Assembly: GCA_026712925.1 (NCBI GenBank) | Contig: JAPOPJ010000271.1 | Coordinates: 1 to 38,390 of the forward strand | DNA from: Nitrososphaerota archaeon | GTDB taxonomy: Archaea; Thermoproteota; Nitrososphaeria; Nitrososphaerales; Nitrosopumilaceae | DNA: 38,390 bases | Direction: 5' to 3' | Shown here: piece by piece, positions 3,016-34,263 of the stretch | Layout: the number at the start of each line of letters is the position of its first letter | Numbering within the stretch: position 1 is the first letter of the stretch | Program-made: the position numbers and the translations under genes | Notes under the pieces: model-generated | Databases searched by the model: none | What the model was told of the DNA's origin: nothing | What the model saw: the letters and a program-made list of their open reading frames with translations, nothing else

Positions 3016-3801
3016 ATGTCAGAGTTTGAAGAGATTCGCATTCACCTAAATGAGCTAAGAAAAAGAGTTTTACGAATTATAATTATACTTGGAATCATTA
3101 CAGTATTCTTGCTGACATTTCATGCAGAGCCAGTACAAATAGGAGATGTAATGATATACTATCCAACGCCAGAGCCACTAGATAACATGGCAGCACAAAT
3201 TACAAACCACATGAGAGATACACTAGTACCAGAGAATGTACAGTTGATTCAAACAGCTCCTGGTCAGGCATTTTTTGCACAGGTGTACATTGCAGCACTA
3301 GTTGGAATACTTGCAAGCATGCCAATAATTGTTAGAGAAATGGTAGGATTCATCAAACCCGCACTAAAAGAAAGCGAGATTAATGTAGGTAGGGGTATAT
3401 CCATACCAGCAGTTGGGCTTTTTGCCGCAGGCTGTATCTTTTCATACTTTTTTGTAGTGCCATATATACTAGAATTTCTGTACAGGTATGGTGAGTCAGC
3501 AGGACTAGTTACATTTCTTAATGTAATGGACTTTGTGACGTTTGTTCTCCAATTTCTGCTAGCATTTGGACTCTCGTTCCAGCTACCGCTAGTCATGTAT
3601 GCAGTAACAGCATCCGGAGCTACAGATACAAAGTTTTGGAGAAGAAATGCAAGATATGCAATAATTGTCATAGTGATATTTGGGGCTATAATCACACCTG
3701 ACGGGAGTGGTGTTACAATGTGGTTTATTGCAGGCCCGATGATCGCATTATATGCTGCAGGCATGGTTATAATTGAGAGAAAGGCAAGGTTGAACACTTA
3801 A
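3016..3801 (+). CDS. tatC: TatC, twin-arginine translocase receptor subunit
   Basis: TatC is the polytopic membrane core that recognises twin-arginine signal peptides of folded exported proteins. The 261 residues carry the family's N-terminal motif 'HLNELRKR', the segment 'FIKPALKESE' (family: PgLxxxER) and six predicted membrane helices, including 'YFFVVPYILEFLYRYG' and the 'FGAIITPDGS' loop. The length is typical. A weak TATA-like AGATAAAAC sits about 26 bp upstream of the ATG. tatA follows after 27 bp, giving a minimal archaeal TatAC system. Confidence 0.95.
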   Translation: MSEFEEIRIHLNELRKRVLRIIIILGIITVFLLTFHAEPVQIGDVMIYYPTPEPLDNMAAQITNHMRDTLVPENVQLIQTAPGQAFFAQVYIAALVGILASMPIIVREMVGFIKPALKESEINVGRGISIPAVGLFAAGCIFSYFFVVPYILEFLYRYGESAGLVTFLNVMDFVTFVLQFLLAFGLSFQLPLVMYAVTASGATDTKFWRRNARYAIIVIVIFGAIITPDGSGVTMWFIAGPMIALYAAGMVIIERKARLNT

Positions 3802-3828
3802 ATCTAAAATGTGTAAAATAATATCATA

Positions 3829-4035
3829 ATGTTTGGAATGAACTTTGCCGGTTTTATTGCAGGCCAAGAATGGATATTCATCATAATAATAGCTGTGGTG
3901 CTTATCTTTGGTGCAAAAAAAATCCCAGAGCTTGCAAAGACGTTTGGCAAGGCAAAAGGAGAGTACGAAAAAGGAAAGATAGAGGGTGAAAAAGAGCTAA
4001 AAGACTTTAAGGATAAAGAGACAAAATCTGACTAA
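3829..4035 (+). CDS. tatA: TatA, twin-arginine translocase pore-forming subunit
   Basis: This 68-residue protein has a single N-terminal membrane helix (WIFIIIIAVVLIFG), the diagnostic hinge and amphipathic helix 'FGAKKIPELAKTFGKAKGEYE', and a highly charged C-terminal tail. This is the TatA/E architecture that oligomerises around TatC during transport. It is separated from tatC by 27 bp containing its own TATA-like ACTTAAATC about 26 bp before the ATG, so it may be transcribed alone as well as with tatC. Its stop overlaps by a few bases the stop of the convergent SRPBCC gene. Confidence 0.93.
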   Translation: MFGMNFAGFIAGQEWIFIIIIAVVLIFGAKKIPELAKTFGKAKGEYEKGKIEGEKELKDFKDKETKSD

Positions 4036-5025: not shown

Positions 5026-5078
5026 ACCAAAAAAGCAGTATGGCGGTTTTTTATCTGTTTGACATGAGATATGCTGAT

Positions 5079-5441
5079 CTAGTCACGGTGTCCCGTATCA
5101 TCATATTTCACACTATCATGCTTTGTATCATCATGCTTTGTATCATCATGCTTTGTATCATCATGCTTTGTATCATCATGCTTTGTATCATCATATTTCA
5201 CACCATCATGCTTTGTATCATCATATTCTATATCATCATGTCTCACAATATCGTCTGGTATGGTGCCAAAGTCGTCTCGTCTAAGATCCTCACTAGACAT
5301 GCCTCGTTCACGCCGCCTCTTGACCCACAGGTATATCCCACCTACAAACATGGCAGTAAGCAGTATAGCACCTGCCATTTGTAGCTCAAAATGATACAAC
5401 ATGATATAACTTGGTGTGCTTTGAGAAAAATCTTGCGGCAT
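5079..5441 (-). CDS. Single-pass membrane protein with Asp/His-rich pentapeptide repeats
   Basis: The 120 residues contain one membrane helix near the N-terminus (MAGAILLTAMFVGGIYLW), a basic stop-transfer stretch (KRRRERG), and a C-terminal tail made of roughly nine units of the pentapeptide (D)DTKH. The tail is encoded by a 15-bp DNA repeat. An N-out, C-in topology is suggested by the positive-inside rule. The many Asp and His residues could bind metal ions, but slippage of a DNA repeat explains the tail equally well. A start at the second Met (MLYHF) is possible. Whether it is expressed cannot be told. Confidence 0.5.
   Translation of the reverse strand: MPQDFSQSTPSYIMLYHFELQMAGAILLTAMFVGGIYLWVKRRRERGMSSEDLRRDDFGTIPDDIVRHDDIEYDDTKHDGVKYDDTKHDDTKHDDTKHDDTKHDDTKHDSVKYDDTGHRD
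5101..5245. repeat. 15-bp tandem repeat inside a coding region
   Basis: The unit TATCATCATGCTTTG recurs about nine times with a few variants (ATATTTCACACTATC-like). The 15-bp period keeps the reading frame, producing the (DDTKH)n tail of the minus-strand protein and a meaningless open frame on the plus strand. Copy number is likely to vary between strains. Confidence 0.88.
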
Positions 5442-5660: not shown

Positions 5661-6752
5661 ATGATTAAGAGACAAGAGATGGGCAAGATTGCCAGAGATT
5701 ATCAAGGTATCAGAATAGGTGTGCTTGGAAGTCACTCAGCACTAGAAATTATGGACGGTGCAAAAGACGAGGGTTATAAAACTACAGTCTACTGCCAAAA
5801 AGGAAGAGAGACACCATACCAGAGGTTTAAAAGAGTTGCAGATGAAATTGTTGTACTAGATAAATTCAAAGACATGGCATTAGCCAAGACACAAAAGCAA
5901 TTAAAAGATAACAACACCATCATAGTCCCACACAGGTCACTTGTGGTTTACTTGGGATATGATACATTAGAAGAAAAATTCAAAGTGCCCATATTTGGAA
6001 ACAGACGACTTTTTCGTGCTGAAGAGCGAAACGCAAAGAAAAACCAGTACTATTTGCTTGAAAAAGCCAAAATCAAGCTTCCAAGACTGTTTAAAAACCC
6101 AAAAGAGATAGACTGTCCATGCATGGTAAAGGTACAAGAAAAGGACAGACCACTTGAGAGGGCATTTTTCACCGTCTCATCATACTCAGACTATAAGGAA
6201 AAATCAGAGGCACGAATAAAACAAGGACTGATATCAGAAGAGGATTTGACAAGTTCAAGCATTGAAGAGCTTGTAGTGGGAACATACATGAACTTTAACT
6301 TTTTCCACACGCCGATATCAAAACAAGTCGACTTTATAGGAATAGAGAGAAGGTTACAGACTAACATACATGACTATAATGCACTCCCAGCAAGACAACA
6401 ATTAGACATTGATGTAGACCTGCAAAATATTGAAGTCGGTCACACTCCAGCAAGTATAAGAGAGTCACTTTTAGATAAAGTCATTAAAATGGGTGATCAG
6501 TTTGTATCAGCAGTAAAAAAAGAATATGCACCGGGAATCATTGGCCCATTCTCACTCCAAAGTGTAATTACAAAGGACCTAGAGTTAGTAGTATATGATG
6601 TATCACTGCGTGTACCTGGAAATCCAATTGTTGCAACAACTACACCCTACACAAAGTACCAGTACGGCCATACTTTTGGCGTTGGTAGAAGAATTGCAAT
6701 GGAGATAAGACAAGCAGAAATACAAGATAAAATGAACAAAATTGTCACATGA
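5661..6752 (+). CDS. purP: PurP, FAICAR synthetase (archaeal purine synthesis)
   Basis: PurP is the ATP-grasp enzyme that formylates AICAR to FAICAR using formate and ATP, replacing the folate-dependent PurH step in archaea. The 363 residues start with the family's 'GVLGSHSALEIMDGAKDEGY', contain 'VPHRSLVVYLG', 'PIFGNRRLFRAEERN' and 'MNFNFFHTPI', and finish with 'YGHTFGVGRRIAMEIR', all recognisable PurP blocks. The length is normal. A TATA-like GCTATATTAG lies about 26 bp upstream of the ATG, fitting a leaderless message. An alternative start is the ATG seven codons in (MGKIARDY). Confidence 0.95.
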   Translation: MIKRQEMGKIARDYQGIRIGVLGSHSALEIMDGAKDEGYKTTVYCQKGRETPYQRFKRVADEIVVLDKFKDMALAKTQKQLKDNNTIIVPHRSLVVYLGYDTLEEKFKVPIFGNRRLFRAEERNAKKNQYYLLEKAKIKLPRLFKNPKEIDCPCMVKVQEKDRPLERAFFTVSSYSDYKEKSEARIKQGLISEEDLTSSSIEELVVGTYMNFNFFHTPISKQVDFIGIERRLQTNIHDYNALPARQQLDIDVDLQNIEVGHTPASIRESLLDKVIKMGDQFVSAVKKEYAPGIIGPFSLQSVITKDLELVVYDVSLRVPGNPIVATTTPYTKYQYGHTFGVGRRIAMEIRQAEIQDKMNKIVT

Positions 6753-7248
6753 TGCTTTACATAATATGAAACACCATCATACATTCTGGTACGATTCAGA
6801 TTTTGTTTGTAGATGGTATAGTAATTTAACAATAGAATTTATACTCAGTATATTAAACCCACGATACAAAATCAGCCAGATAAAAACACATTTTATTTAC
6901 CACAAAGAATCTACTGTACAAAAACACAGTAAATGATATCAAAAAACATACAAAACAGAAAAAACCTAGGCATCAAGAGAATCACCACAAATACGGTGTG
7001 TTTTTGTAGTTTTTGTGTAAAGGATACAGTAAATTCACACATGTAATAACAGAACTGTGTATCAATTGTAAACAAATGCATTGAAAAGTAGCATTGTTGC
7101 TCTCAGAAAGAGTCAAAAACGAGTCACAAATTAGCAACCACATAAGCTGTAAATGAAAAAGATTGATGGAGTTGATGAGACAGGTAGGAAACAAGTGTAA
7201 AAAACTCGATTCAGCATGTATGAGAAATAAAAGTACTATTTCACAGAT
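6753..7248. other. Intergenic stretch, no gene recognised
   Basis: No supported gene. Around 6984-7010 the sequence ACAAATACGGTGTGTTTTTG resembles the outer end of the dispersed element at 21790-22110, so part of this region may be a decayed copy. Short open frames here have no supporting promoter or protein features. Confidence 0.5.
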
Positions 7249-7462
7249 TTTTTCCAAAACTCGGAGCTTGGGTGGACAAAAGGTGTCAAGGGGTTTATTG
7301 TATAGATAATATCAAACACAGCAAGAGTGGTCGCATACTACACATCAAAATCCATTTTGACATCGATGAAGAATCCAAAACACGACAAATTTACTACTCG
7401 TGATGAATATGCCCACATCAGAGGTTAAAATCAGTAAAATGCTGAGTTTATGGAAGGATCTT
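7249..7462 (+). repeat. Dispersed element copy A, upstream of PIN module 1
   Basis: The left end CCAAAACTCGGAGCTTGG matches the left end at 31387-31405 (CTCAAATTCGGAGATTGG). The core shares 'CAAACACAG.AAGAG', 'CATACTA', 'CCATTTTGA' and 'AATCCAAAA' with the copy at 31374-31594. The right end GAGTTTATGGAAGGATC corresponds to that copy's right terminal repeat. The alignment was made by eye and the copies are diverged. Confidence 0.65.
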
Positions 7463-7503
7463 TTTTTCATGCAATTAATATACATCCTTATGTTAGAATT
7501 AGC

Positions 7504-8040
7504 ATGTCATCAATCACATTACTAGATGAAATTACAAATAGAATAAACACCATGAATGCAGAGAATGTGATAGATGTCACTATATGTAATAGTCTAACCG
7601 AATTAAATGAAAAAATGATAGAAATTGATAAAAAGTGGTTAAAAATCGATCATGAAAACAGTTTTAGATTCTTTTGTGGAGTAGGAGCTGTTGAATTACT
7701 TCTTGAACAAATGATAGAACGATTTCAGATCGAAGGAAAACAAAATGATTTGCAGATTGTACGGGACTCTTCAGATGTGATTCCGCTTGCATGTGAGATC
7801 ATTCAACTTGCAGAACAGTATAACCCAGATGATAATCTAGCTGAGCAAATATCAGAAAAAAGACTTCAATTACGCGACTTGGTAAGGGAAAAAAACTTGT
7901 TAGAACCTGTTGAGCGAAATCTGCGTGACATTGACAAAAAATTCCTTGGAGAGGTGTTTGATAAAATGTTGGAAAATATTGGAGCTCCAAGAGAAATACC
8001 TACAAATGTGAGTGTTGATGAGATTAAAAATACTTCTTGA
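7504..8040 (+). CDS. Helical partner of PIN-like nuclease, copy 1
   Basis: The family is not recognised. The protein is soluble and almost all helical, with a conserved core 'GAVELLLEQMIERFQIE', then 'VIPLA.EIIQLAEQYNPDD' and a charged helix 'ISEKRLQLRDLVREKNLLE'. It ends in 'NVSVDEIKNTS' and overlaps the PIN gene by 23 nt, so translation is probably coupled. I chose ATG 7504 over ATG 7450: a TTAATATAC box lies about 25 bp before 7504 in all three copies, the 7450 start falls inside the dispersed element, and base changes between copies upstream of 7504 are not codon-like. By position it resembles an antitoxin or immunity partner, but this is inferred from gene order only. Confidence 0.75.
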   Translation: MSSITLLDEITNRINTMNAENVIDVTICNSLTELNEKMIEIDKKWLKIDHENSFRFFCGVGAVELLLEQMIERFQIEGKQNDLQIVRDSSDVIPLACEIIQLAEQYNPDDNLAEQISEKRLQLRDLVREKNLLEPVERNLRDIDKKFLGEVFDKMLENIGAPREIPTNVSVDEIKNTS

Positions 8041-8857
8041 TTCTACCATTATGATTGCCGCAAGTATTTACAACACTCGTGATAAGACAGGCTTGGTAGA
8101 AAATAGATCAGATGCAACAGATCTGATTAACGAATTAAAAAAACACGTAAATGAAAAAATAGGAATAACAACGCAAACACTATATGCTGAGTCTATGAAT
8201 GCAGTTGAAAAAGGAATAAATGATGCCATGCCTAAAACATTATCTAATTTTGACAGAGTGAAAACTCTACGACAGTCAATAAATGTATGTGAAGATGAAG
8301 TTTATAGACTTTCCAAGTACTTGTATCAATATACCTCTGAATATCTAAAAGGGAAAGAACTACAAGACGCAAAAGATGAAATTGAAAAACTGTCAAAATA
8401 CATCAAAGTAAGACATGAAACAGTGTACAAAGATGAGAATAGTCAACGTAAGGAAGCTGAGCGTAGAGCCAATCTTGAAATCAAACAACAACAGAATAAA
8501 CAATTGTGGTATGTTCTTTTTAAAAAGTATCTAGAACAGATACGGATAGAATCAAAACAAGTTAAAAAATTTGTGAGTAAAGAACCAAATGCTAAAAAAT
8601 TTGACAGTAAAAAATCAAAAGATGGAAATTCAGGAGACAAACGCATACTGGCAGAATCTGCCGCAATCAAACACAAACATGAGAAAAACAAAGAACCCAT
8701 CGATTTTTACATTGCATCGTATGATACTGGATTTTTCTCAGCGCAAATAGTAAATGGTAAGAAATCAGATGTAGTGACAAAAGAAATAAAGAAAAGATTT
8801 GGAATAGTTTGTGAACACCCAAGAGAAATTATACGACAGTGTTTTTCTGATAGATAA
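8018..8857 (+). CDS. PIN-like nuclease with long helical insert, copy 1
   Basis: PIN domains are Mg-dependent RNases common as VapC-type toxins. The pattern fits: an N-terminal strand with the first acid (KILLDSTI, D8), an acidic residue after the second strand (TQTLYAES, E58), then near the C-terminus GDKRILAES (D207) and FYIASYDTGFF (D236), followed by 'RFGIVCEHPREI'. Between E58 and D207 lies a charged, coiled-coil-like insert of ~140 residues, making the protein 279 aa instead of the usual ~130-150. ATG 8018 is preferred to GTG 8012. It overlaps its partner gene by 23 nt. The PIN call is by motif and needs structure prediction to confirm. Confidence 0.7.
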   Translation: MRLKILLDSTIMIAASIYNTRDKTGLVENRSDATDLINELKKHVNEKIGITTQTLYAESMNAVEKGINDAMPKTLSNFDRVKTLRQSINVCEDEVYRLSKYLYQYTSEYLKGKELQDAKDEIEKLSKYIKVRHETVYKDENSQRKEAERRANLEIKQQQNKQLWYVLFKKYLEQIRIESKQVKKFVSKEPNAKKFDSKKSKDGNSGDKRILAESAAIKHKHEKNKEPIDFYIASYDTGFFSAQIVNGKKSDVVTKEIKKRFGIVCEHPREIIRQCFSDR

Positions 8858-8934
8858 AATTAGTTTGAAAATAAGATTACAGTCTAATTAAAATAAGAAC
8901 TATCATTCTAAATTAATTTAATTATGAATTATTT

Positions 8935-9106
8935 GGTATTTTTTTGCCAAACTGTAACAAGACAAGCGTAACCAACAACTCCCACACTCCAAAACCCATT
9001 CTAGTGATGCTGGGTAATCCTAAATGTCTAAAATATGTTATAAAAGACAGACATGTCAAGGTCAGAGAGTCAGATTAACAAAAGCCTCGAATTTGCAGAA
9101 GGATCC
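8935..9106 (+). repeat. Dispersed element copy D, upstream of PIN module 2
   Basis: The segment beginning CAAAACCCATTCTAG near 8992 aligns with CAAAACCCATTTTGA at 31476-31490. Similarity continues through 'AATCCTAAATGTCTAAAAT' to the right end CTCGAATTTGCAGAAGG, which matches the right terminal repeat at 31571. The left end is decayed. A T-run at the start (TATTTTTTTG) may terminate module 1. Confidence 0.6.
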
Positions 9107-9148
9107 TTTTTTCATGAAATTAATATACATCCTTATGTTAGAATTAGC

Positions 9149-9685
9149 ATGTCATCAATCACATTACTAGATGAAATTACAAATAGAATAAACACCATGA
9201 ATGCAGAGAATGTAATAGATGTCACTATATGTAATAGTCTAACCGAGTTAAAAGAAAAAATGATTGAAATTAAAAAAATGTGGTTAAAAATCAATCATGA
9301 AAACAATTTTGGTTTCTTTCGTGCAGTAGGAGCTGTGGAATTACTTCTTGAACAAATGATGGAACGGTTTCAAATCGAAGTAAAATATGATGATTTACAA
9401 ATTGTACAGGACTCGTCTGAGGTGATTCCACTTGCGCGTGAAATCATTCAACTTGTAGAACAGTATAATCCAGATGATAAACTAGCTGAACAAATATCAG
9501 AAAAAAGACTTCAATTACGCGACTTGGTAGAGGAAAAAAACTTGTTAGAGTCTGATGAGCGAAATCTGCGCGACGTGGATAAAAATACGCTCGATAAAAT
9601 ATTTTGTAAAATGTTAAAAAATATGGACGTTTCACTAAAAGTTCCTTCAAATGTGAGTATTGATGAAATTAAAAATACTTCTTGA
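9149..9685 (+). CDS. Helical partner of PIN-like nuclease, copy 2
   Basis: Paralogue of the gene at 7504, with near-identical N-terminus (MSSITLLDEITNRINTMNAE) and the same core 'GAVELLLEQMMERFQIE'. The C-terminal third is the most changed ('NTLDKIFCKMLKNMDVSLKVP'). ATG 9149 is chosen because TTAATATAC lies about 25 bp upstream. The longer frame from 9053 begins inside the dispersed element and only ~10 bp after a TATA-like motif, too close to be a start. The gene is intact although its PIN partner is broken, which is a hint that the partner may have a use on its own or that the break is recent. Confidence 0.72.
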   Translation: MSSITLLDEITNRINTMNAENVIDVTICNSLTELKEKMIEIKKMWLKINHENNFGFFRAVGAVELLLEQMMERFQIEVKYDDLQIVQDSSEVIPLAREIIQLVEQYNPDDKLAEQISEKRLQLRDLVEEKNLLESDERNLRDVDKNTLDKIFCKMLKNMDVSLKVPSNVSIDEIKNTS

Positions 9686-10640
9686 TTCCACCATTATTAT
9701 CGCCGCAAGTATTAACAACACTAATGAAATGACAGGCATGGTAGGAGGTAGCTCAGATGCAACAGACCTCATTAATGAATTAAGAACACGTAAAAATGAA
9801 AAAATAGGAATAACAACTCAAACACTGTATGTTGAGTCTATAAATGCAATGGAAAAAGGAATAAAAGATGCCATACATAAAATCCTTCTAAAAAGATTAA
9901 AAGATAGATCTAATGAAAACGTTAAAAAAGAAATAATTGAGCCCATATGGGAAATTCTTAAAAAAAAATTAAAAGAAAAAGATAATGAAAACGTAAATAA
10001 AATAATAAATTATGCGATAATTGAAGCATTATTTGATAATGATATTGCAAAATCACTAGATCATGTAGTAAATATGTGTGAAAAGGAAGTAAAGATACTT
10101 TTCAGGGCCTTGTTTCAATACACTTCCCAAGAACTAAATGGGAGAAACTACAAGATGCAGAAGTTAAATTAAAAAACTGTCAATGTACATCAAGGCAAGA
10201 TATGAAACAGTGCATAAAGATGGTGATAAACAACGTAAGGAAGCTGAGCGTCGAGCCAATCTTGAAATCAAAGAACAACTGAATAGACAATTATGGGGAG
10301 ATCTTTTTAAAAATGTTTGGAACAAGTGTGGATAGAATCAAGACAAGTTAAAAAATTTATGAGTAAAGAACCAAATGCTAAAAAGTTAGACGGTAAAAAA
10401 TCAAAGTGTGAAAATTCTGGAGATAAACGCATACTGGTAGAATCCGCGGCAATCAAATCCAAACATGCGAAAAACAAAGAATCCATTAATTTTTACATTG
10501 AATCATCTGATACTGGATTTTTCTCACCACAAATAGTAAATGGCAAGAAATCATATGTAGTTACAAAAGAAAAAAAGGAAAGGTTTAATATAATTTATGA
10601 TGATCAAAAAGAAATCATACGACAGTGTTTTTCTCATTGA
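9663..10640 (+). pseudogene. PIN-like nuclease, copy 2, frameshifted
   Basis: Compared with copies 1 and 3, this copy has three apparent single-base losses near 10146, 10168 and 10310. They cause a stop at 10170-10172 and split the gene into an N-terminal piece (9663-10172) and a C-terminal piece (10317-10640). The C-terminal piece, still with GDKRIL and SSDTGFF, is back in the original frame after three losses. It also carries extra coding sequence of about 40 residues made of two similar blocks containing 'NENV(K/N)K', a local duplication. The first PIN acid (LLDSTI) is intact. Sequencing error is unlikely to explain three separate losses plus an insertion, but raw reads were not seen. Confidence 0.7.
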
Positions 10641-10724
10641 TATGATTGATTTGAAAATAACATTACAGTCTAATTAAAATAAGAACTATCATTCTAATTA
10701 AATTCATTACAAATTATTGAATAT

Positions 10725-10889
10725 TTTTTTGCCATACTGTAACAAAGCAATAGCAACCAACTACCCCCACATCACAAAATGCATTTTAGAGATGATGTGT
10801 AATCATAAGTGCCTAAAATTTGTCATAAAAGACAGACATGTTAAGGTCAAAGAGCCAGATTAACAAAAGCAAAGAGTTGTGGAAGAATC
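10725..10889 (+). repeat. Dispersed element copy E, upstream of PIN module 3
   Basis: Close to copy D throughout ('CATACTGTAACAA', 'CAACTACCCCCACATCACAAAATGCATT', then CATAAAAGACAGACATG) and ending AAAGAGTTGTGGAAGAATC, the decayed right terminal repeat. Compared with copy D it lacks one base near the 3' end, which breaks the frame that in copy D could be read from 9053. It starts with a T-run likely to terminate module 2. Confidence 0.55.
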
Positions 10890-10932
10890 TTTTTTTCATG
10901 CAATTAATATACTACCTAATGCTAGAATTACC

Positions 10933-11469
10933 ATGTCATCAATAACATTACTAGATGAAATTACAGATAGAATAAACACAATGGATACTGAGGGCATGAT
11001 AGATGCCACAATATGTAATAGTCTAACCAAGTTAATCGAAAAAATGATAAAAATTAAAAAAAAGTGGTTAACAGTCAATCATGAAAATAATTTTGATTTC
11101 TTTTGTGCAGTAGGAGCTGTGGAATTACTTCTTGAGCAAATGATAGAGCGGTTTCAAATTGAAGCAAAATACAATAATTTGCAAATTGTATTGGACTCTT
11201 CAGATGTGATTCCGTTGGCACGTGAGATCATTCAAATTGCAGAACAGTATAATCCAGATGATGATCTAGCTGAGCATATATCAGAAAAAAGACTTCAATT
11301 ACGCGACTTGGCAAGGGAGAAAAATTTGTTAGAACCTGTTGAGCGAAATTTGCGTGATATTGACAAAAAATTTCTTGGAGAGGTATTTGACAAAATGTTG
11401 GAAAATATTGGAGCACCAAGAGAAATACCTACAAATGTGAGTGTTAATGAGGTTAAAAATACTTCTTGA
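10933..11469 (+). CDS. Helical partner of PIN-like nuclease, copy 3
   Basis: Paralogue of the genes at 7504 and 9149, with the same helical core and a C-terminal end nearly identical to copy 1 (EPVERNLRDIDKKFLGEVFD). ATG 10933 has TTAATATAC about 26 bp upstream. A GTG at 10879 would add 18 residues, but in exactly this stretch copy 3 differs from copy 1 by several replacement changes in a row and no silent ones, as expected for noncoding DNA. It overlaps the PIN gene by 23 nt. Confidence 0.73.
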   Translation: MSSITLLDEITDRINTMDTEGMIDATICNSLTKLIEKMIKIKKKWLTVNHENNFDFFCAVGAVELLLEQMIERFQIEAKYNNLQIVLDSSDVIPLAREIIQIAEQYNPDDDLAEHISEKRLQLRDLAREKNLLEPVERNLRDIDKKFLGEVFDKMLENIGAPREIPTNVSVNEVKNTS

Positions 11470-12286
11470 TTCCACCATTATTATCGCCGCAAGTATTTAC
11501 AACACTCGTGAAAAGACAGGCTTGGTAGAAAATAGATCAGGTGCAACAGACCTCATTAATGAATTAATAAAACATGTAAATGAAAAAATAGGAATAACAA
11601 CGCAAACACTATATGCTGAGTCTATGAATGGATTGAAAAAAGGTATAAAAAATGCCATGCCTAAAACATTATCTGCATATGATGAAACAAATACTCTAGA
11701 ACGTTCAATAAATGTATGTGAGGATGAAGTATATAGACTTTCCATGTACTTGTTTCAATATACCTCTGAATATCTAAAAGGGAAAGAACTACAAGACGCA
11801 AAAGTTGAAATTGAAAAACTATCAAAATATATCAAAGTAAGACATGAAACTATGTACAAAGATGATGATAGTCAACGTAAGGAAGCTGAGCGTAGAACCA
11901 AGATTGAAATCAAACAACAACAGAATAAAGGATCATGGAAAGTTATTTTTGAAAAGTATCGAGAACAAGTACGAATAGAATCAAAACAAGTTAAAAAATT
12001 TATGAGTAAAGAACCAAATGCTAAAAAGTTAGATGGTAAAAAATCAAATGATGGAAATTCAGGAGACAAACGCATACTAACAGAATCTGCAGCAATCAAA
12101 TACAAGCTTGAGAAAAACAAAGAACCAATTGATTTTTACATTGCATCGTATGATACTGGGTTTTTCTCACCACAATTAGTAAATGGTAAAAAATCAGATG
12201 TGGTGACAAAAGAAATAAAGAAACGATTCGGAATAATTTGTGACCACCCAGGAGAAATTATACGACAGTGTTTTTCTGATAGATAA
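11447..12286 (+). CDS. PIN-like nuclease with long helical insert, copy 3
   Basis: Intact paralogue of copy 1 (279 aa) with all four candidate acidic positions: LLDSTI, TLYAES, GDKRILTES and YDTGFFS. Most differences from copy 1 lie in the helical insert ('MPKTLSAYDETNTLERS'). Retention of the acids in two of three copies suggests that catalytic function has been maintained. The ATG at 11447 is preferred over GTG 11441. The 3' flank, ending in a T-rich stretch near 12366, is shared with the other modules. Confidence 0.7.
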   Translation: MRLKILLDSTIIIAASIYNTREKTGLVENRSGATDLINELIKHVNEKIGITTQTLYAESMNGLKKGIKNAMPKTLSAYDETNTLERSINVCEDEVYRLSMYLFQYTSEYLKGKELQDAKVEIEKLSKYIKVRHETMYKDDDSQRKEAERRTKIEIKQQQNKGSWKVIFEKYREQVRIESKQVKKFMSKEPNAKKLDGKKSNDGNSGDKRILTESAAIKYKLEKNKEPIDFYIASYDTGFFSPQLVNGKKSDVVTKEIKKRFGIICDHPGEIIRQCFSDR

Positions 12287-21789: not shown

Positions 21790-22110
21790 TGAAATCCTAC
21801 CAAATACGGTGTTTTTGTTAATTTGGGTCCTTGACCTAGACACATTCATCACAGGTGATAAATTTGAGATGTTTTGGGTTCTTGTATCTATTCACGTACC
21901 ATGATAGTTTGCGTGTGGATATGGAAGAACACATGTTGGTTTTGTGTTTGCAAAAGTATGAGTGTGAACAGTTACGGATTCTTTAGTAATTTCAAAATGA
22001 TTTTTGGTATCTAGCAATTAATCATCCTTGCCTTGTTTGGTGTTGTGGACATGGTAAACTATTTGATATCATATGTACATCCAAGCGCCGAGTTTGGAAA
22101 AGAACAGATA
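21790..22110 (-). repeat. Dispersed element copy C, inverted and with an internal insertion
   Basis: Read on the minus strand, the left end is CCAAACTCGGCGCTTGGATG (22082-22101). The core 'CAAAAATCATTTTGAAATTACTAA' aligns with the copy at 31374. 'AAAACATCTCAAATTTATCA' then matches AAAATATCTTAAATTTATCA at 31507-31526, and the right end is CCGTATTTGGTAGG. Relative to that copy about 110 bp of extra sequence lies in the middle. No toxin-antitoxin gene is adjacent, so the element can occur alone. Confidence 0.65.
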
Positions 22111-22160
22111 CATGATAAAACTTGGAAATTATTATAATTTATGGTACGTAGCTTGAAATA

Positions 22161-23815: not shown

Positions 23816-26800
23816 TCATGGTACAGGTGCAGGTACAAACCCAGTACCAGGCACATATGTTCCGTAGCGCTCCCATCCAGACTCGCCGATTATCCATATA
23901 GCATAGCTTGCTTCTGCTGCATCACCTGCGGCATTAAGTGAAATGTTTCCTATTGCGCCACTATATTGTGATGTAATCATTGGTATCTGCCTCTTTACAT
24001 CCTCAAAGCCAGCATCACCAGTAGCCTCAATGGCTAGGCCGAGAATCTGCACACTATCATAAGAAGCATAGGCATACACATTGGGATTGCCTTCAATTCT
24101 AGGATCCTCTGAAAAGCGCGTATTTAGTTCTGTGTACATCGGACTAGTATCATCAACATCAAATATCCGCTCCCTGAATTTTGTATTCTTTAGAAACTCT
24201 AGCACTACTTCATTATTCACTAACACCTCACTTTGAACATTAGCATCAGAGCCTATCCACTGTACACTGTGCAGTATTTCATGAGCGGCTGCTTTTTCCA
24301 TAAAGACCTCAGTCTCACCAATTCCCACATACATTACAGCAATTTTCTCACTTCCATGTTCATTTACAAGCAGTTCTATTTTATCTGCCAAAGTTGCAGT
24401 CATTTCCTCAAACATTGAATCATAACAGTCAGGTATATCACATAGTGGATAACTTTCAAAGTCATCTACCATACCACCCATACTCTCAAATGATGCAGCA
24501 GTACTATTACGCAGTCCATTACCAAACGCATCATCCCTCCACACAGGAACAAGTACACTAATCCCATCATCAGTGAGTAGCTGTGCTGCCACTACACCTT
24601 GCAGAGAATCATCAGGGGCAAGGCGGAATACATTATCTCCTTCATTTGCAATGCTAGGTGCAGTAGAACAGCAGCTGAGAAGTAGCATGTTATTTGCATT
24701 AAGATAGTCTTTAATTTGTGCAATACCACCGCTAGCAGATGGACCAGTGATGTACCTAATTCCATCATCATTAAATGACCTAACAGGCTCTACATACCCC
24801 TCAGATGCAGTATCAGCAACCTGAATATCTAGCCTCCATGTTGCATTTTTTTCACTCAAATATTCATTAAAGTCATTTACTGCATACTCTGCGGCTACAT
24901 TTCTGTGAACTCCTGCACCGTCTGCCCTAGTTACTGGGATTAGACCACCAATCTCAACTATTTCTACCCATGCCCCGTCAATTATTCTCCACACGGCATA
25001 CTGGCCATCTGCACGGTCACCGGCACTATTTAAAACCGTATTTCCTGATGCCCCTACATACTTTGCAGACACATCAGACAGAGAGGCCTTGACATCACTT
25101 ACATCAGTACTCTGTGCATCTAAAATGGAGAGTCCTAGGAGCCACACCACATCATACTCAAAGCTAGTATAGACACTTGGTGCCCTGTAAAATTGTACAT
25201 TATCCTCAAAGTGTTTTGCAATCTGTTGTGTAATTACATTGTCATGGACTCGTGGTTGTACAGATACCAGCCCTACACGCTCTGCAAATTCAAGCGCAGT
25301 TTCATTATCAGTTATGTTCGGATATGCAGTATTTACATCTGCACTATACCACTTTACACCATTTAATACATCATGCTTGCTTGCCTCGACTAGAAAATCA
25401 GCATTACGCTCAAACCCAACATACAGCACTGCAACATTCCCAGCACCATTGTCAATCATTTGCTGTACTGCATCTGCAAGGGTAGCAACAGGTCCTTCAA
25501 GGTCATCATTATAACTAATCACACCTCCCATTATATTCCCATCAGACATACTCTCAAAAGAGGTACCAGTCAATTCCAGCAAGTCATTTACCCAAATATT
25601 CTCAAGCCCCACAGGAACAAATGCACTGATATCATCACTATTCATGACATCAGCTAGTTTTTCAGCGTGCTGTGCATGTCCTGGTGCAAGTCTAAACATT
25701 GCATCATTATCAATTGCAAATGGCGTAGTAACACTACAACAGCTCAACAAGAGCATGTCATTTTCATTTGCATATCTGAGTAATGCAGTATCATAGTCTA
25801 TTGCATTCCCATCAATAATCTTGATGTTTGAATTATTTAGTGCAGTGAGTTCCTCTAGTGCAACAGCAGGATTAGTTTGGGAGTCACGCCTATCCACTGA
25901 AAGTGACCATCCTGCATCAAGGCTTTCCAGATAATCATTAAAATCATTTACTGCAAGTATTGAGGCGGCATTTATCTCCTCACCATACTTTGTCGCACCA
26001 CCAGATAATGGTGCTAGTGCACCTATTGATATTTCACCCTCAAGGGAAGTCCTTTCTGCTGCAAGATAGTTCCAGTGGCCCGGACTTAGTGGATATGACG
26101 GATCATCAAATGCCCTCACTACAAGGCGCATCTCAGGGATATACTCATCAAGGTAGAATGGTCCATTGCTTATCACGGCTGTACCCTTTTCTGTAATCCA
26201 GTTAATTGATGCGGCATATCTCGTGTCAACATCTGTCATATCATCATACACACCGGCAGGTATCATTCCATCAGACATCATCCCTAGTGCATTCTTTATC
26301 AAGGCGACATCCATATCATCTAACATAGAAATCCACGAGACATCATTACTCACTGCAACAGAATTTGAAAATGCGGCATCACCATTTAGCACCACGGCCT
26401 CCATTGCAGCTTGCACCTCCCATGGTATGCTACTCCAAAGCAGTGCACGAGATGCAATTTCAGATTCATCAAAGTGCCAATAATCCACATACACATCTAT
26501 TGTATCATCATCAATTACGCGTATTCCCTTTATCAGAGGATTTGCACCTGCTGCTAATTCGGGATCATACTTTGCCACATCATCGGGGTTTGAGCTAGAC
26601 TTTGTAATCCATTCTCTATATAGGTATGTAGGATACATCACATCATTAATGTCCATTGGTATTCCATTATGCCACTTGCTAAATTTCAAATCAACTCTAA
26701 CCTTACTAATTGACTCTGTACCCTGTGGTAATGTTGTCCACTCTTGGTTTGCCGCATCCCACATGACAGCATCATCATGGAGTGTAATCATACCATCAGG

Positions 26801-29800
26801 ACCATTGGTATCTACAGACCATGCAACCCTTACTGGTGTCAAGTCACCTGTAAATGGATCCCTCACGGCAGCTGGATCGCGTAATATATTCCAAGTATAT
26901 GTGCTATATGTGTCTGTAAATCCTGAAACTGTATTCCATGGACTCTGTCGGATGTATTTTACCCCGACTACTAAATCATCATCACCGGCATTTGCATTAA
27001 TTAATGTGGCTCTGTTTGTAATTCCTTGGCCTTGTGCATTTACCACGCCTCCAATACCTTCCACTGCAACGTATTGGTCATTTTCATATCCAAGAAATAT
27101 CCTTACAGATTCTTGTACACCCGCCAAGACTGCCTCTCGGACTAGATTTGCTCTCTCAGCGTTATTGGAGTACTCTTCATTGTATATCCTCATAGTAGTC
27201 TCATCCAAAAATTCATTTTCATAGTTCCAATAATTAGGGTTGTTCAGCCCCGGCATAAATGAACCCCATGGTGCATAATATGTTGCAATGCTGGTATTAT
27301 CATATTTGGTTACTGTAGGTCCGCCAAATGCTCCAGTGTAAATGTGCCAATCAAGGTTTGCAGGGTTTGAACCATACACCACATTAAACGCATCATTAAG
27401 ATTTCCATTAATTATATCCACTGCAAATCCTAAACTGACAAGCTCTTCAGCAAGAGAGTTTCCAATTGCATCTCTAATGGAATCATCATTGCGTATGAAC
27501 ATTTTAACAGTTATCTGTGTATCATCCATCAACCATTTTCCATCATACTTTGTAGCTCCATTTTCTTCAAGAACATCGCTTATCATCATGTCTGCCATAT
27601 TTACATCATATCTGATTCCAAGGTTTTCAATGTCTTTATACACTAAAAGATAGTCATTGTGCGTGGGCCCAAATACAGATAGCATGATATTGCCATGCCC
27701 TCGGAAATGCTCACGTACTATTTCTTCCCGGTCAACTAGAAAATTAATAGCATAACGCATCTCTTGGAATGCAAATGGGTTGAACTGATCATCAACATCA
27801 GCAGGGTTTAGAAATAAATCATAAGTTACACCACCTATAGACTCAAATCCCTGCACACCTTCAGGCAAGCCATCTTCTGTTTGGTCACGCGGTATGGGGT
27901 AATAGTACATGTCAAATGAACCATCTTGTACCTCAGATAGTGCAGTTGTCTCATCATTATACTCAATGAATGTTATCACATCTACATTGGTGCCACGATC
28001 AGAGGCAGGCAATATTGGTGCTAGGCCAATCATCATTGTATATGTGGAATCAAATGACGTGCCAGAAATGATTAGTGCACCTGGTACTTTTACACCATTA
28101 GGGTATGTGTGGATTGGTGATGTTGCTTCATAGCCAGCTGGTAATACCACCTGTGCAAGAAAGTCTGCTGGAACCAAGTCTGCCCTAGTTGCCACACCAT
28201 TTGCATCAGTGAATATGCTGGAAAGTGGACCAATTGTATATGTGTATGCAGTTATCTCTATTTCTGGAAATGGTTTCTCATTATCATCCATTATACCATT
28301 TCTATTATTATCATAAAATGTAGTGACATCAAGTGTGATTAGCTCGTCTGCCGGTACGGGATAAAATCCAATATTAAATTCACTAGCAGTATAATCATCA
28401 AGTGCTTCATACGTGTACCATTTCTCTGAGGATAAAATGGTACCAGGAGGATAGTACGAGGACTGGACTAGTATCAATCCAGGTGGCATCTCAAAGAACT
28501 GGGTATATTTGCCATCAGGTGTGGTGATTAGTTCTGTAAATGTTCCAGTTGAGAAATTAAAAGTAATTATTTTGTGATTTGCAATTCCTAGCTCACCTGC
28601 ATCCATATTGCCATTATTATTAACATCTGAAAATATTGTACCAGATAGAATAGTACCATTTAGCATCATGAGGTGAAGTACATCAGTGCCGGTGGAATCC
28701 TCTGATACCTCAGGGCCAGGTGCACCTGCTGCTAAATCTGGTATGCCATCCATGTTAATATCACCGACAATTGCAACAGAAGAGCCAAACAAGTCCACGC
28801 CGCCAAGATTCGGACCATTTGGAGTATCTGCATTAATTTCAAAAGTGTTTTTTATTGCACCATTACTCTCAAGGTATAAAACATACAAGTCACCTGTTCC
28901 TACACTTTGTGTGTGATGTCCTGGAGCACCTACAACAATATCAGGTGTACCGTTCCCATCAATATCTCCTAGTGATGCAACTGATTCTCCAAATAAATCA
29001 CCCTTTACAAGGGAATTAGGACCGTTTGGAGTTTCAGAGTTTATGTCTATTGTATTTAGGATTGCCACGTTTTCATCAAATAAAATGACATACACATCAC
29101 CAGTAGTGTTGCCGCGGTCATGATACCCCGGCGCGCCTACAACCATATCTGGTGTACCATTCCCATCTACATCACCAGCAGCTGCAACTGAAGCACCAAA
29201 CCTGTTGCTGATTTCTAGAAATGGCCCTTTAGGAGTATCGGCATTTATCTCAACTGTTCTGATTATACTGCCATCCGCATTAAGGAGTAATACGTAAACA
29301 TCACCAGATGCTATACCTCCTACATGATGTCCAGGTGCACCTACTGCAATATCTGCTGTGCCATTCCCATCCATATCACCAATATTTGCAACAGATGTGC
29401 CAAACAAGTCACCAGTTTGAAGTGATTCGGGCCCATTTGGAGTCTCAGAGTTTATCTCCATAGTTTTCAGAACAGTACCGCCATTTCCAAGTAGTATGAT
29501 GTATACAGTACCAGTATTTTGAGTATGGGTAGGATGTCCTGGTGCACCTACTGCAATATCAGGTATGCCATTCCCATCCATATCCCCAATATTTGCAATG
29601 GATGTACCAAACAAAGAGTATGGTCCAAGTGAGTCAGGACCGTTTGGAGTGCCAAGGGCTATCTCGATTATACCACCATCTAGTATAGCTCCATCTACAT
29701 CAAGCATCATTAGATAGATATCACCTATTCCAATTGTCTTGTCTTGGTGTCCCGGAGCTCCTACTGCAATATCAGGTATGCCATCCCCGTTAATATCACC

Positions 29801-30055
29801 TATTGGTGCAACAGATGAACCAAACAAATCATGCTCACCAACTGATGGACTGTGTATTTCAATTGAATTTTTTATCATAATATCTGCAAAAGACTCTGAT
29901 GTGGCAGGAATAGCCATAGCCACCACTGCAAAAACCACACAAATTGGTATTAGTATGTTGTTTTTCACCAACAATCCCCAGTATGGTACCAATTTTACTA
30001 GTATTAATTTCAATCCATGATCGCAGTTTTTTCTAGCAGGGTCCTCGCCAAACAC
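23816..30055 (-). CDS. Giant secreted multi-sensor protein: FG-GAP / SdrD-like / SBP_5 / two Peripla_BP_6
   Basis: About 2,079 residues. An N-terminal hydrophobic segment (NNILIPICVVFAVVAMAIP, cleavage near 'SESFA') is followed by six FG-GAP repeats of type 'LFGxSVAxxGDxDGNGxPDIAVGAPGH' (residues ~77-460, integrin-like propeller with Ca-binding DxDGNG loops). Next are two Cna-B/SdrD-like segments ('DVNNNGNMDAGE', 'DNNRNGIMDDNE', ~465-690) and an SBP_bac_5 peptide-binding region (~690-1330). Two Peripla_BP_6-type domains follow (~1345-1700 and ~1705-2065), each with 'MLLLSCCS'. There is no C-terminal anchor. GTG 29968 (MKNNILIP) would give a cleaner signal peptide than ATG 30055. It is probably a cell-surface nutrient receptor, but no ABC permease or ATPase gene is nearby, so uptake partners are unknown. 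Confidence 0.88.
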   Translation of the reverse strand: MFGEDPARKNCDHGLKLILVKLVPYWGLLVKNNILIPICVVFAVVAMAIPATSESFADIMIKNSIEIHSPSVGEHDLFGSSVAPIGDINGDGIPDIAVGAPGHQDKTIGIGDIYLMMLDVDGAILDGGIIEIALGTPNGPDSLGPYSLFGTSIANIGDMDGNGIPDIAVGAPGHPTHTQNTGTVYIILLGNGGTVLKTMEINSETPNGPESLQTGDLFGTSVANIGDMDGNGTADIAVGAPGHHVGGIASGDVYVLLLNADGSIIRTVEINADTPKGPFLEISNRFGASVAAAGDVDGNGTPDMVVGAPGYHDRGNTTGDVYVILFDENVAILNTIDINSETPNGPNSLVKGDLFGESVASLGDIDGNGTPDIVVGAPGHHTQSVGTGDLYVLYLESNGAIKNTFEINADTPNGPNLGGVDLFGSSVAIVGDINMDGIPDLAAGAPGPEVSEDSTGTDVLHLMMLNGTILSGTIFSDVNNNGNMDAGELGIANHKIITFNFSTGTFTELITTPDGKYTQFFEMPPGLILVQSSYYPPGTILSSEKWYTYEALDDYTASEFNIGFYPVPADELITLDVTTFYDNNRNGIMDDNEKPFPEIEITAYTYTIGPLSSIFTDANGVATRADLVPADFLAQVVLPAGYEATSPIHTYPNGVKVPGALIISGTSFDSTYTMMIGLAPILPASDRGTNVDVITFIEYNDETTALSEVQDGSFDMYYYPIPRDQTEDGLPEGVQGFESIGGVTYDLFLNPADVDDQFNPFAFQEMRYAINFLVDREEIVREHFRGHGNIMLSVFGPTHNDYLLVYKDIENLGIRYDVNMADMMISDVLEENGATKYDGKWLMDDTQITVKMFIRNDDSIRDAIGNSLAEELVSLGFAVDIINGNLNDAFNVVYGSNPANLDWHIYTGAFGGPTVTKYDNTSIATYYAPWGSFMPGLNNPNYWNYENEFLDETTMRIYNEEYSNNAERANLVREAVLAGVQESVRIFLGYENDQYVAVEGIGGVVNAQGQGITNRATLINANAGDDDLVVGVKYIRQSPWNTVSGFTDTYSTYTWNILRDPAAVRDPFTGDLTPVRVAWSVDTNGPDGMITLHDDAVMWDAANQEWTTLPQGTESISKVRVDLKFSKWHNGIPMDINDVMYPTYLYREWITKSSSNPDDVAKYDPELAAGANPLIKGIRVIDDDTIDVYVDYWHFDESEIASRALLWSSIPWEVQAAMEAVVLNGDAAFSNSVAVSNDVSWISMLDDMDVALIKNALGMMSDGMIPAGVYDDMTDVDTRYAASINWITEKGTAVISNGPFYLDEYIPEMRLVVRAFDDPSYPLSPGHWNYLAAERTSLEGEISIGALAPLSGGATKYGEEINAASILAVNDFNDYLESLDAGWSLSVDRRDSQTNPAVALEELTALNNSNIKIIDGNAIDYDTALLRYANENDMLLLSCCSVTTPFAIDNDAMFRLAPGHAQHAEKLADVMNSDDISAFVPVGLENIWVNDLLELTGTSFESMSDGNIMGGVISYNDDLEGPVATLADAVQQMIDNGAGNVAVLYVGFERNADFLVEASKHDVLNGVKWYSADVNTAYPNITDNETALEFAERVGLVSVQPRVHDNVITQQIAKHFEDNVQFYRAPSVYTSFEYDVVWLLGLSILDAQSTDVSDVKASLSDVSAKYVGASGNTVLNSAGDRADGQYAVWRIIDGAWVEIVEIGGLIPVTRADGAGVHRNVAAEYAVNDFNEYLSEKNATWRLDIQVADTASEGYVEPVRSFNDDGIRYITGPSASGGIAQIKDYLNANNMLLLSCCSTAPSIANEGDNVFRLAPDDSLQGVVAAQLLTDDGISVLVPVWRDDAFGNGLRNSTAASFESMGGMVDDFESYPLCDIPDCYDSMFEEMTATLADKIELLVNEHGSEKIAVMYVGIGETEVFMEKAAAHEILHSVQWIGSDANVQSEVLVNNEVVLEFLKNTKFRERIFDVDDTSPMYTELNTRFSEDPRIEGNPNVYAYASYDSVQILGLAIEATGDAGFEDVKRQIPMITSQYSGAIGNISLNAAGDAAEASYAIWIIGESGWERYGTYVPGTGFVPAPVP

Positions 30056-31368: not shown

Positions 31369-31373
31369 TATTT

Positions 31374-31594
31374 CGCACAGGTTTTTACTCAAATTCGGAG
31401 ATTGGATGGCCAAAAGATGACAAAGTACAATATCCATACCACCAAACACAGTAAGAGGAACCACATACTATATCCCAAAACCCATTTTGAAGTTGCTAAA
31501 TAATCCAAAATATCTTAAATTTATCATCCATGATATACATATCGAGGTAAAATGCGCAAAATAGCAAAAGCTCCGAATTTGGTAAAGAACCGCG
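31374..31594 (+). repeat. Dispersed element copy B with terminal inverted repeats
   Basis: The left end CGCACAGGTTTTTACTCAAATTCGGAG (split here as CGCACAGGTTTTTA + CTCAAATTCGGAG, 31374-31400) matches the reverse complement of the right end CTCCGAATTTGG + TAAAGAACCGCG (31571-31594) at most positions. TATT flanks both ends (TATTT before CGC, TATTG after GCG), a possible short target duplication. There is no coding capacity. Size and ends look like a MITE-type nonautonomous element. It begins only ~5 bp upstream of the NTase-operon box A. Confidence 0.65.
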
Positions 31595-31861
31595 TATTGC
31601 TTCAAGTGCTTAGAATAGATGTAATTGTAAACCAGTAGAGTGTGTGACTCTAACATTATCCCATTCTTTGGAATGTATCTACTATGCGTTTTAACTCTGA
31701 TATGATTGTGTAGGTAAGGGTTTTTTCATGAAAAGTGCTTAAATTTAGCAAGTTGGGATTAGCCTAAATGCTTACAGTATATCTATGCAATCACAATAAT
31801 GCAGACCATATAATCTGGCTTTTCTTCAAGGTTTTTTTTAGGCAACAATATACAAAAACCA
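31595..31861. other. Intergenic stretch, no gene recognised
   Basis: No gene is supported. CAATATACAA near 31845-31854 is a candidate TATA box for the small membrane protein that follows. Confidence 0.45.
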
Positions 31862-33582: not shown

Positions 33583-34263
33583 TTAAACCTTGATTTTCTT
33601 TTTTTGTTTTACTGAACCATCAGGATTGTATGTAATTGTAGATATTAGATTGCCATCTGTATCATACAAATTCTGTTTCGTTTTAGAACCATCAGGATTG
33701 TATCTAGTCTCAGATTTTATATTATCATCTTTATCGTACAATCTTTGTTTCGTTTTAGAACCGTCAGGGTTGTATGTAGTCTCAGATTTTACATTATTAT
33801 TTTCATAATACTCGTACAAATCCTGCGTCATGGAACCATCAGAGTTGAAAGTAATCTCAGATTTTACATTACCATCATCATAATACTCGTACAAATACCG
33901 CTTCTCTATTGAACCATCAGGATTGTATCTAGTCTCAGATTTTAAATTATCATCCTCATAATACTCGTAAAAATCTTGCACTTTAGAACCATCAGAGTTG
34001 TAAAAAGTCTCAGATTTTAAATTATCATCCTCATAATACTCGTAAAAAACCTGCTCCTTAGAACCATCAGGATTGTAGTAAATCTCAGATTTTGGATTGT
34101 TGTCTTCATAATAGTCTAACAAATCCTCTAACCCTTTAGAACTATCAGTGTATGTAGTTTTTGATTTTAACTTGTCATATTCATCGTATATTTCCAACTT
34201 TACTATTGAACCATCAGAGTTATCATAGATCTTTAGTTTATCATTGTTGTTTTTCTTTGACAA
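33583..34263 (-). CDS. MORN_2 / YwqK-like repeat protein
   Basis: The 226 residues consist of about nine imperfect repeats of 20-24 residues with the pattern 'YYEDDNLKSETFYNSDGSKVQDF', i.e. (Y)-D-x-G/D-N-hydrophobic-KSET-x-YN-x-DGS. This matches the MORN_2/YwqK type, which forms stacked beta hairpins. YwqK has been labelled an antitoxin component in databases, but evidence for that is thin. No signal peptide or membrane helix. The start is TTG 34263, with a TATA-like TTTTTAATATC about 30 bp upstream. The neighbours do not indicate a role. Confidence 0.75.
   Translation of the reverse strand: MSKKNNNDKLKIYDNSDGSIVKLEIYDEYDKLKSKTTYTDSSKGLEDLLDYYEDNNPKSEIYYNPDGSKEQVFYEYYEDDNLKSETFYNSDGSKVQDFYEYYEDDNLKSETRYNPDGSIEKRYLYEYYDDGNVKSEITFNSDGSMTQDLYEYYENNNVKSETTYNPDGSKTKQRLYDKDDNIKSETRYNPDGSKTKQNLYDTDGNLISTITYNPDGSVKQKKKIKV

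Follow-up and report, generated by a model that had tools for sequence, protein, structure and literature searches.

A pair of overlapping genes, A followed by B, that is repeated in tandem in the DNA analysed here (38,390 nucleotides of a Nitrosopumilaceae contig, hereafter the window) apparently belongs to a real and hitherto undescribed archaeal gene-pair family, and we consider it probable that the pair constitutes a mobile type II-like toxin–antitoxin module with a new type of antitoxin. Consistent with the suspicion of a first-pass annotation of this DNA that the system is unrecognised, neither A nor B matches a family in Pfam, NCBIfam or PADLOC, and B also lacks a match in PHROGs; if our reading is correct, the two would represent new protein families.

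Open reading frames (ORFs) and repeats bear out the triplicated, overlapping two-gene module that had been annotated: three tandem copies, each with A (178 residues, helical) preceding B (about 280 residues), occupy positions 7504–12286 at a spacing of 1645 and 1784 nt, with a DNA identity of 82–91% between copies over their main blocks and a G+C content of about 0.31 across the module versus about 0.39 in the surroundings. As the duplication extends to the spacer 5′ of copies 2 and 3 (82%), the entire unit has been amplified. All genes lie on the + strand. In the first copy, the ORF of A1 (7504–8040; helical partner and putative antitoxin of 178 residues; A-family HMM, E 2e-59) overlaps that of B1 (8018–8857; PIN-like with a long helical insert; B-family HMM, E 3e-80), whose ATG lies at 8018 in an ORF that opens with a GTG at 8012. 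In the third, A3 (10933–11469; helical partner of 178 residues) overlaps B3 (11447–12286; PIN-like with insert), both identified by ORF and HMM. The intact overlap measures 23 nt, the start codon of B (ATG at 8018 and 11447) being located within the 3′ end of A.

The middle copy has decayed on one side, as the first-pass annotation had noticed for one of the three: A2 (9149–9685; ORF; HMM, E 2e-57) is intact, while B2 (9663–10640; HMM and alignment) is a pseudogene in which 144 nt have been inserted in frame and three 1-nt deletions break the reading frame. The insertion, which is absent from B3, corresponds in position and length to two 72-nt tandem repeats that are 75% alike (9853–9996, + strand). 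The intact copies have diverged to 85% (A1 versus A3) and 84% (B1 versus B3) identity with dN/dS ratios of 0.29 and 0.38, respectively, and with values well below 1 in intact genes both A and B look to be under purifying selection. Elsewhere, the window contains a short tandem repeat (5040–5384 and 5079–5441) that gives an MLCII-repeat reading on the + strand and a KHDDT repeat on the − strand (a 120-aa ORF), a 2079-aa ORF with internal repeats (23816–30055) and, apart from this, diverged DNA repeats that cluster at 33600–34220.

Protein A, 178 aa long in the window and 165–180 aa in the family (longer in some paralogues), is predicted to be all-helical. The AF2 model of A3 (pLDDT 81, with 109 of 178 residues at 90 or above, nearly all within the first 130) features five main helices and a low-confidence tail. 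Fold searches with A in PDB and BFVD returned no match at E ≤ 0.001, members of the family gave no match to RHH, AbrB, HTH, MerR or PHD in Pfam and NCBIfam, and A is unrelated to the insert of B. According to the model, A is thus a helical bundle without a detected DNA-binding domain or known antitoxin fold, in agreement with its annotation as an all-helical protein that is no VapB-like antitoxin. At one further locus (L025, 7042–8076), two A domains from different subfamilies are fused as a 344-aa protein upstream of a broken B, and a cut copy of this fused double A gene is found at positions 1–699 of L024.

Protein B carries acids in the PIN order D, E, D, D (D7, E57, D206 and D235 of B3, numbered from 11450), which are invariant in the nine paralogues from the genome of the window (G000) in our first alignment and at least 90% conserved in the wider family; the conserved blocks read IxxDTNVIxxASI, VxxE, DxxILAE and IASxDxxFF. 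When the B family core without insert columns was compared by HHalign with ordinary VapC-type PIN proteins from the same and related genomes, the global alignment (E 6e-5) placed all four motifs in register, and the local alignment (P 9e-5) scored 32.6, whereas the best of 100 column shuffles scored 18.6, the HHalign probability of 38–73% corresponding to a marginal profile match. No single B sequence reached a PIN cut-off in Pfam and NCBIfam scans: the paralogue at L019 matched PIN_4 (PF13638; E 0.028; 15.2 versus a cut-off of 21.9 bits) and PIN_12 (PF16289; E 0.9; 10.3 versus 32 bits) over complementary halves of B, below both curated cut-offs, and no named subfamily fits. From motif order and register together with the profile alignment we infer that B is a PIN-like protein. 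The PIN-type acids annotated at both ends of B (LLDSTI, TLYAES, GDKRIL and YDTGFF) are thus supported by motif, register and conservation, and the comparison with PIN profiles suggested at the time brought the four motifs into register far above shuffles.

The distance between the E and the third acid is 149 residues in B3 compared with about 53 in the ordinary PIN protein of L110, and the net extra length of B therefore amounts to about 95–100 residues; the annotated charged helical insert of ~140 residues holds as a long insert, not in its size. Across the family this distance ranges from about 94 residues (C28) through 121 (L152) and the 149 of B3 to still longer in C38 and C169, and intact B proteins measure 223–422 aa. 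Since the segment between acids 2 and 3 occurs in all members and varies widely, it is an ancestral and fast-evolving feature; by this comparison the insert is ancestral to the whole pair family and no peculiarity of the window locus.

Within G000 (2.19 Mb, 330 contigs), which judging from its gene content would be a Nitrosopumilaceae-like ammonia oxidiser, the A–B pair recurs at about 20 further loci, a search with A likewise finding about 20 places and B relatives being full on contig C165 and divergent on C28, C290, C169, C38, C86, C296, C2, C6 and others. Searched separately in 400 genomes of the class, the A and B profiles hit the same four genomes only, G000, G006, G033 and G162, with G033 harbouring an intact pair on one contig (26-nt overlap). 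A second search, with a richer B profile in 398 genomes of the phylum, revealed members outside the family of the window's genome in G424, G529, G544 and G669, the first three at least representing another class. Immediately 5′ of B, all four carry an A homologue (A-profile E 1e-15 to 3e-18), with an overlap of 4–11 nt in the three intact pairs, so that the survey of archaeal genomes for the gene pair, as proposed earlier, uncovered the same A–B order in distant genomes, another class included. A match in G154 (E 1e-5) was rejected as a family member, as it looks like a coiled-coil protein and has no A adjoining. B gave no match in viral_contigs or phages and A none in plasmids, and a single-protein scan of genome_contigs was negative, the family alignment finding one locus there (L085).

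Four A genes are found in the genome G405; one of them forms an intact pair, and another is accompanied by a B that is split by an IS630-like (DDE_3) transposase (L102, 8458–9462), the C-terminal end of B continuing at 9524–9643. This genome is titled Acidimicrobiia; its contigs C2 and C4 (L085, L102, L103, L140 and L141) encode a giant NHL-repeat-like protein akin to the surface proteins of archaea. This protein makes it probable that contigs from a GC-rich archaeon have entered the G405 bin, for which reason we do not claim transfer to bacteria.

Most pairs of G000 lie near a MITE, a repeat of roughly 220 bp bounded by 24-bp terminal inverted repeats, which is present in at least 40 copies in this genome (119 candidate places genome-wide, of which 40 were scored and matched). 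One MITE end is found 34–41 nt before the start of A at several loci, among them all three window copies: a diverged copy (7237–7468, + strand; nhmmer E 3e-35) ends 35 nt before A1, and remnants at 8956–9112 (+ strand; E 6e-22) and 10741–10898 (+ strand; E 2e-15) end 36 nt before A2 and 34 nt before A3, respectively. A 1.6-kb element (L018, 5362–6965) shares its ends with the MITE, encodes a DDE_Tnp_IS240-type transposase and probably gave rise to the MITE family. No MITE was found near the pairs at the G006, G033, G162 and G405 loci examined, and the MITE may therefore explain the expansion of the pair in G000, not the origin of the family. Further copies reside at 31369–31607 and 21799–22112 of the window and at 3703–3950, 6748–6971 and 7706–7944 of L018. 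A second dispersed repeat, of about 90 nt, occurs on many G000 contigs (window 21884–21976, L020 2750–2840 and about ten other places).

At every locus holding both genes, A lies directly upstream of B on the same strand, with an overlap of 4–26 nt or a gap of 13–15 nt, and at several loci a TATA-like box is visible by eye about 25–30 nt before the start codon of A; the box and the abutting or overlapping arrangement suggest that A and B are transcribed from one promoter. The distances of A and B co-vary (Mantel r 0.86, p 5e-5, 11 pairs), as expected of cognate pairs and as shared descent alone would also give. HMM mapping of A and B onto the loci uncovered a marked asymmetry in decay. Both genes are intact at 12 loci (in G000, window copies 1 and 3, C165, C28, C290, C169 and C296; in other genomes, G033, G405-L103, G529, G669 and G544), A is intact and B broken, interrupted or absent at 15 (in G000, window copy 2, C6, C195, two on C78, C219, C108, C79 and C318; elsewhere, G006, G162, L102, two at L085 and G424), and an intact B with a broken A was found at none; contig ends truncate the pairs on C38, C86 and C2, and on C251 A is broken and B missing. 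B being about 1.6 times the length of A, a length-proportional null for 15:0 is roughly 0.63^15, about 0.001, if the loci are independent, which they are only partly, several being paralogues in one MAG. Decaying toxin–antitoxin loci usually lose the toxin and retain the antitoxin, and the one-sided decay lends indirect support to a toxin-like B and a protective A.

In the toxin–antitoxin module that we favour, B would be a PIN-superfamily, metal-dependent endoribonuclease whose four acids cluster and whose helical stretch separating acids 2 and 3 probably acts as a cap for substrate choice and/or partner binding, and A would be a helical-bundle antitoxin with a flexible C-tail. A would be made first from one promoter, with B translationally coupled to it; A would then bind and silence B, and upon loss of A, B would cut RNA and growth would stop. 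Here, the RNase activity of B, its inhibition by A, the binding mode and addiction are what we infer, and the proposal in the first-pass annotation of a toxin-antitoxin or defence locus draws indirect support from the A-to-B coupling, the co-occurrence, the one-sided loss of B, the amplification and the mobile surroundings. In favour of the module we also count the neighbours in some genomes, namely an Eco57I-type modification enzyme, a protein of the DUF4268 family, an integrase-like ORF and, adjoining the intact G033 pair, a 1226-aa protein with integrase repeat units and helicase and methyltransferase domains (L061, 6535–10215).

The assignment of B could be called into question on structural grounds, as the AF2 model of B (pLDDT 46, low confidence throughout) shows no PIN fold and profile searches of PDB gave coiled-coil, designed-helix or chance matches only, leaving B without a sequence relative there. 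B might then be another acid-bearing helical or Rossmann-like enzyme with convergent motifs, but the order and register of the four motifs are those of PIN proteins, at a score far above that of shuffles, which makes this highly improbable, and the AF2 run is uninformative because its alignment, drawn from the window and L085, comprised just two near-identical full rows and fragments. With the model having failed, the fold of B rests on the motifs and the marginal profile match. A distinctly unlikely alternative, though less so, holds that B is a non-toxic RNA-processing nuclease and A its obligate helper, the two having spread by transposon activity instead of addiction. PIN domains also serve RNA maturation, and the flanking MITEs could account for the copy number without addiction; however, the pair is missing from about 99% of the class and is therefore not housekeeping, and A persists once B has gone, although a helper should then decay along with its enzyme.

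Mechanistically close to a toxin–antitoxin module, but selected for defence, would be an antiviral effector pair with A as the sensor of infection that releases or activates the PIN nuclease, such that RNA is cut and the infection aborted. This we deem unlikely, albeit the strongest of the three contenders. The patchy distribution, the variable insert of B, as in arms races, and the R-M, helicase–methyltransferase and integrase-like neighbours in some genomes would fit. However, ordinary cellular genes surround the pair in the window and at most G000 loci, no sensor domain can be recognised in A, and the matches to described anti-phage defence proteins are confined to scattered, weak, single-member PADLOC hits, none of them convincing.

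If the toxin–antitoxin reading is true, the type II catalogue would gain a helical-bundle partner with an enlarged PIN protein, and the about 20 diverged loci in one genome would offer a natural set for partner specificity and cross-talk. Transposases and toxin–antitoxin genes are reported to abound in sponge-associated thaumarchaea (PMC6790972) and, elsewhere, not to be enriched as a group (PMC7848895); families absent from Pfam would escape such counts. We further entertain, as a tentative and rather doubtful extension, a separate archaeal class of PIN-based conflict systems, in which a helical, non-DNA-binding partner would gate the nuclease via the segment between acids 2 and 3, and which would extend beyond a single class of the phylum and have become, in one ammonia-oxidiser-like lineage, a MITE-associated selfish cassette of about 20 diverged copies, the fused double A gene included.

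Among known systems, HEPN-MNT modules, common in archaea (PMC2701414), are akin to the A–B pair in that one partner is a small helical bundle, but the pair has no MNT nucleotidyltransferase, B bears PIN acids, and no HEPN match to A was obtained in Pfam or among the fold matches listed. PIN nucleases are abundant archaeal toxins, and most of the partners listed for them by Makarova et al., 2009 (PMC2701414) bind DNA (RHH, AbrB, Xre-HTH, PHD, COG2442, COG2880, COG1753 and MerR). As VapBC is defined by a DNA-binding antitoxin (PMC3834315), the A–B pair is by that feature not VapBC: its partner is a helical bundle of 165–180 aa without a detectable DNA-binding domain, and B is about twice the normal PIN size (223–422 aa when intact, versus about 130–150 aa for a compact VapC-type PIN toxin), with an ancestral helical segment between acids 2 and 3. 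Yet, akin to type II modules in general, in which the antitoxin gene of an adjacent, co-transcribed pair usually comes first, the putative antitoxin A lies directly upstream of B, and akin to VapBC the two genes are tightly coupled, patchily distributed, amplified and set in mobile neighbourhoods, with the four acids of B in PIN order judging from motifs and register, such that the A–B pair may work like VapBC.
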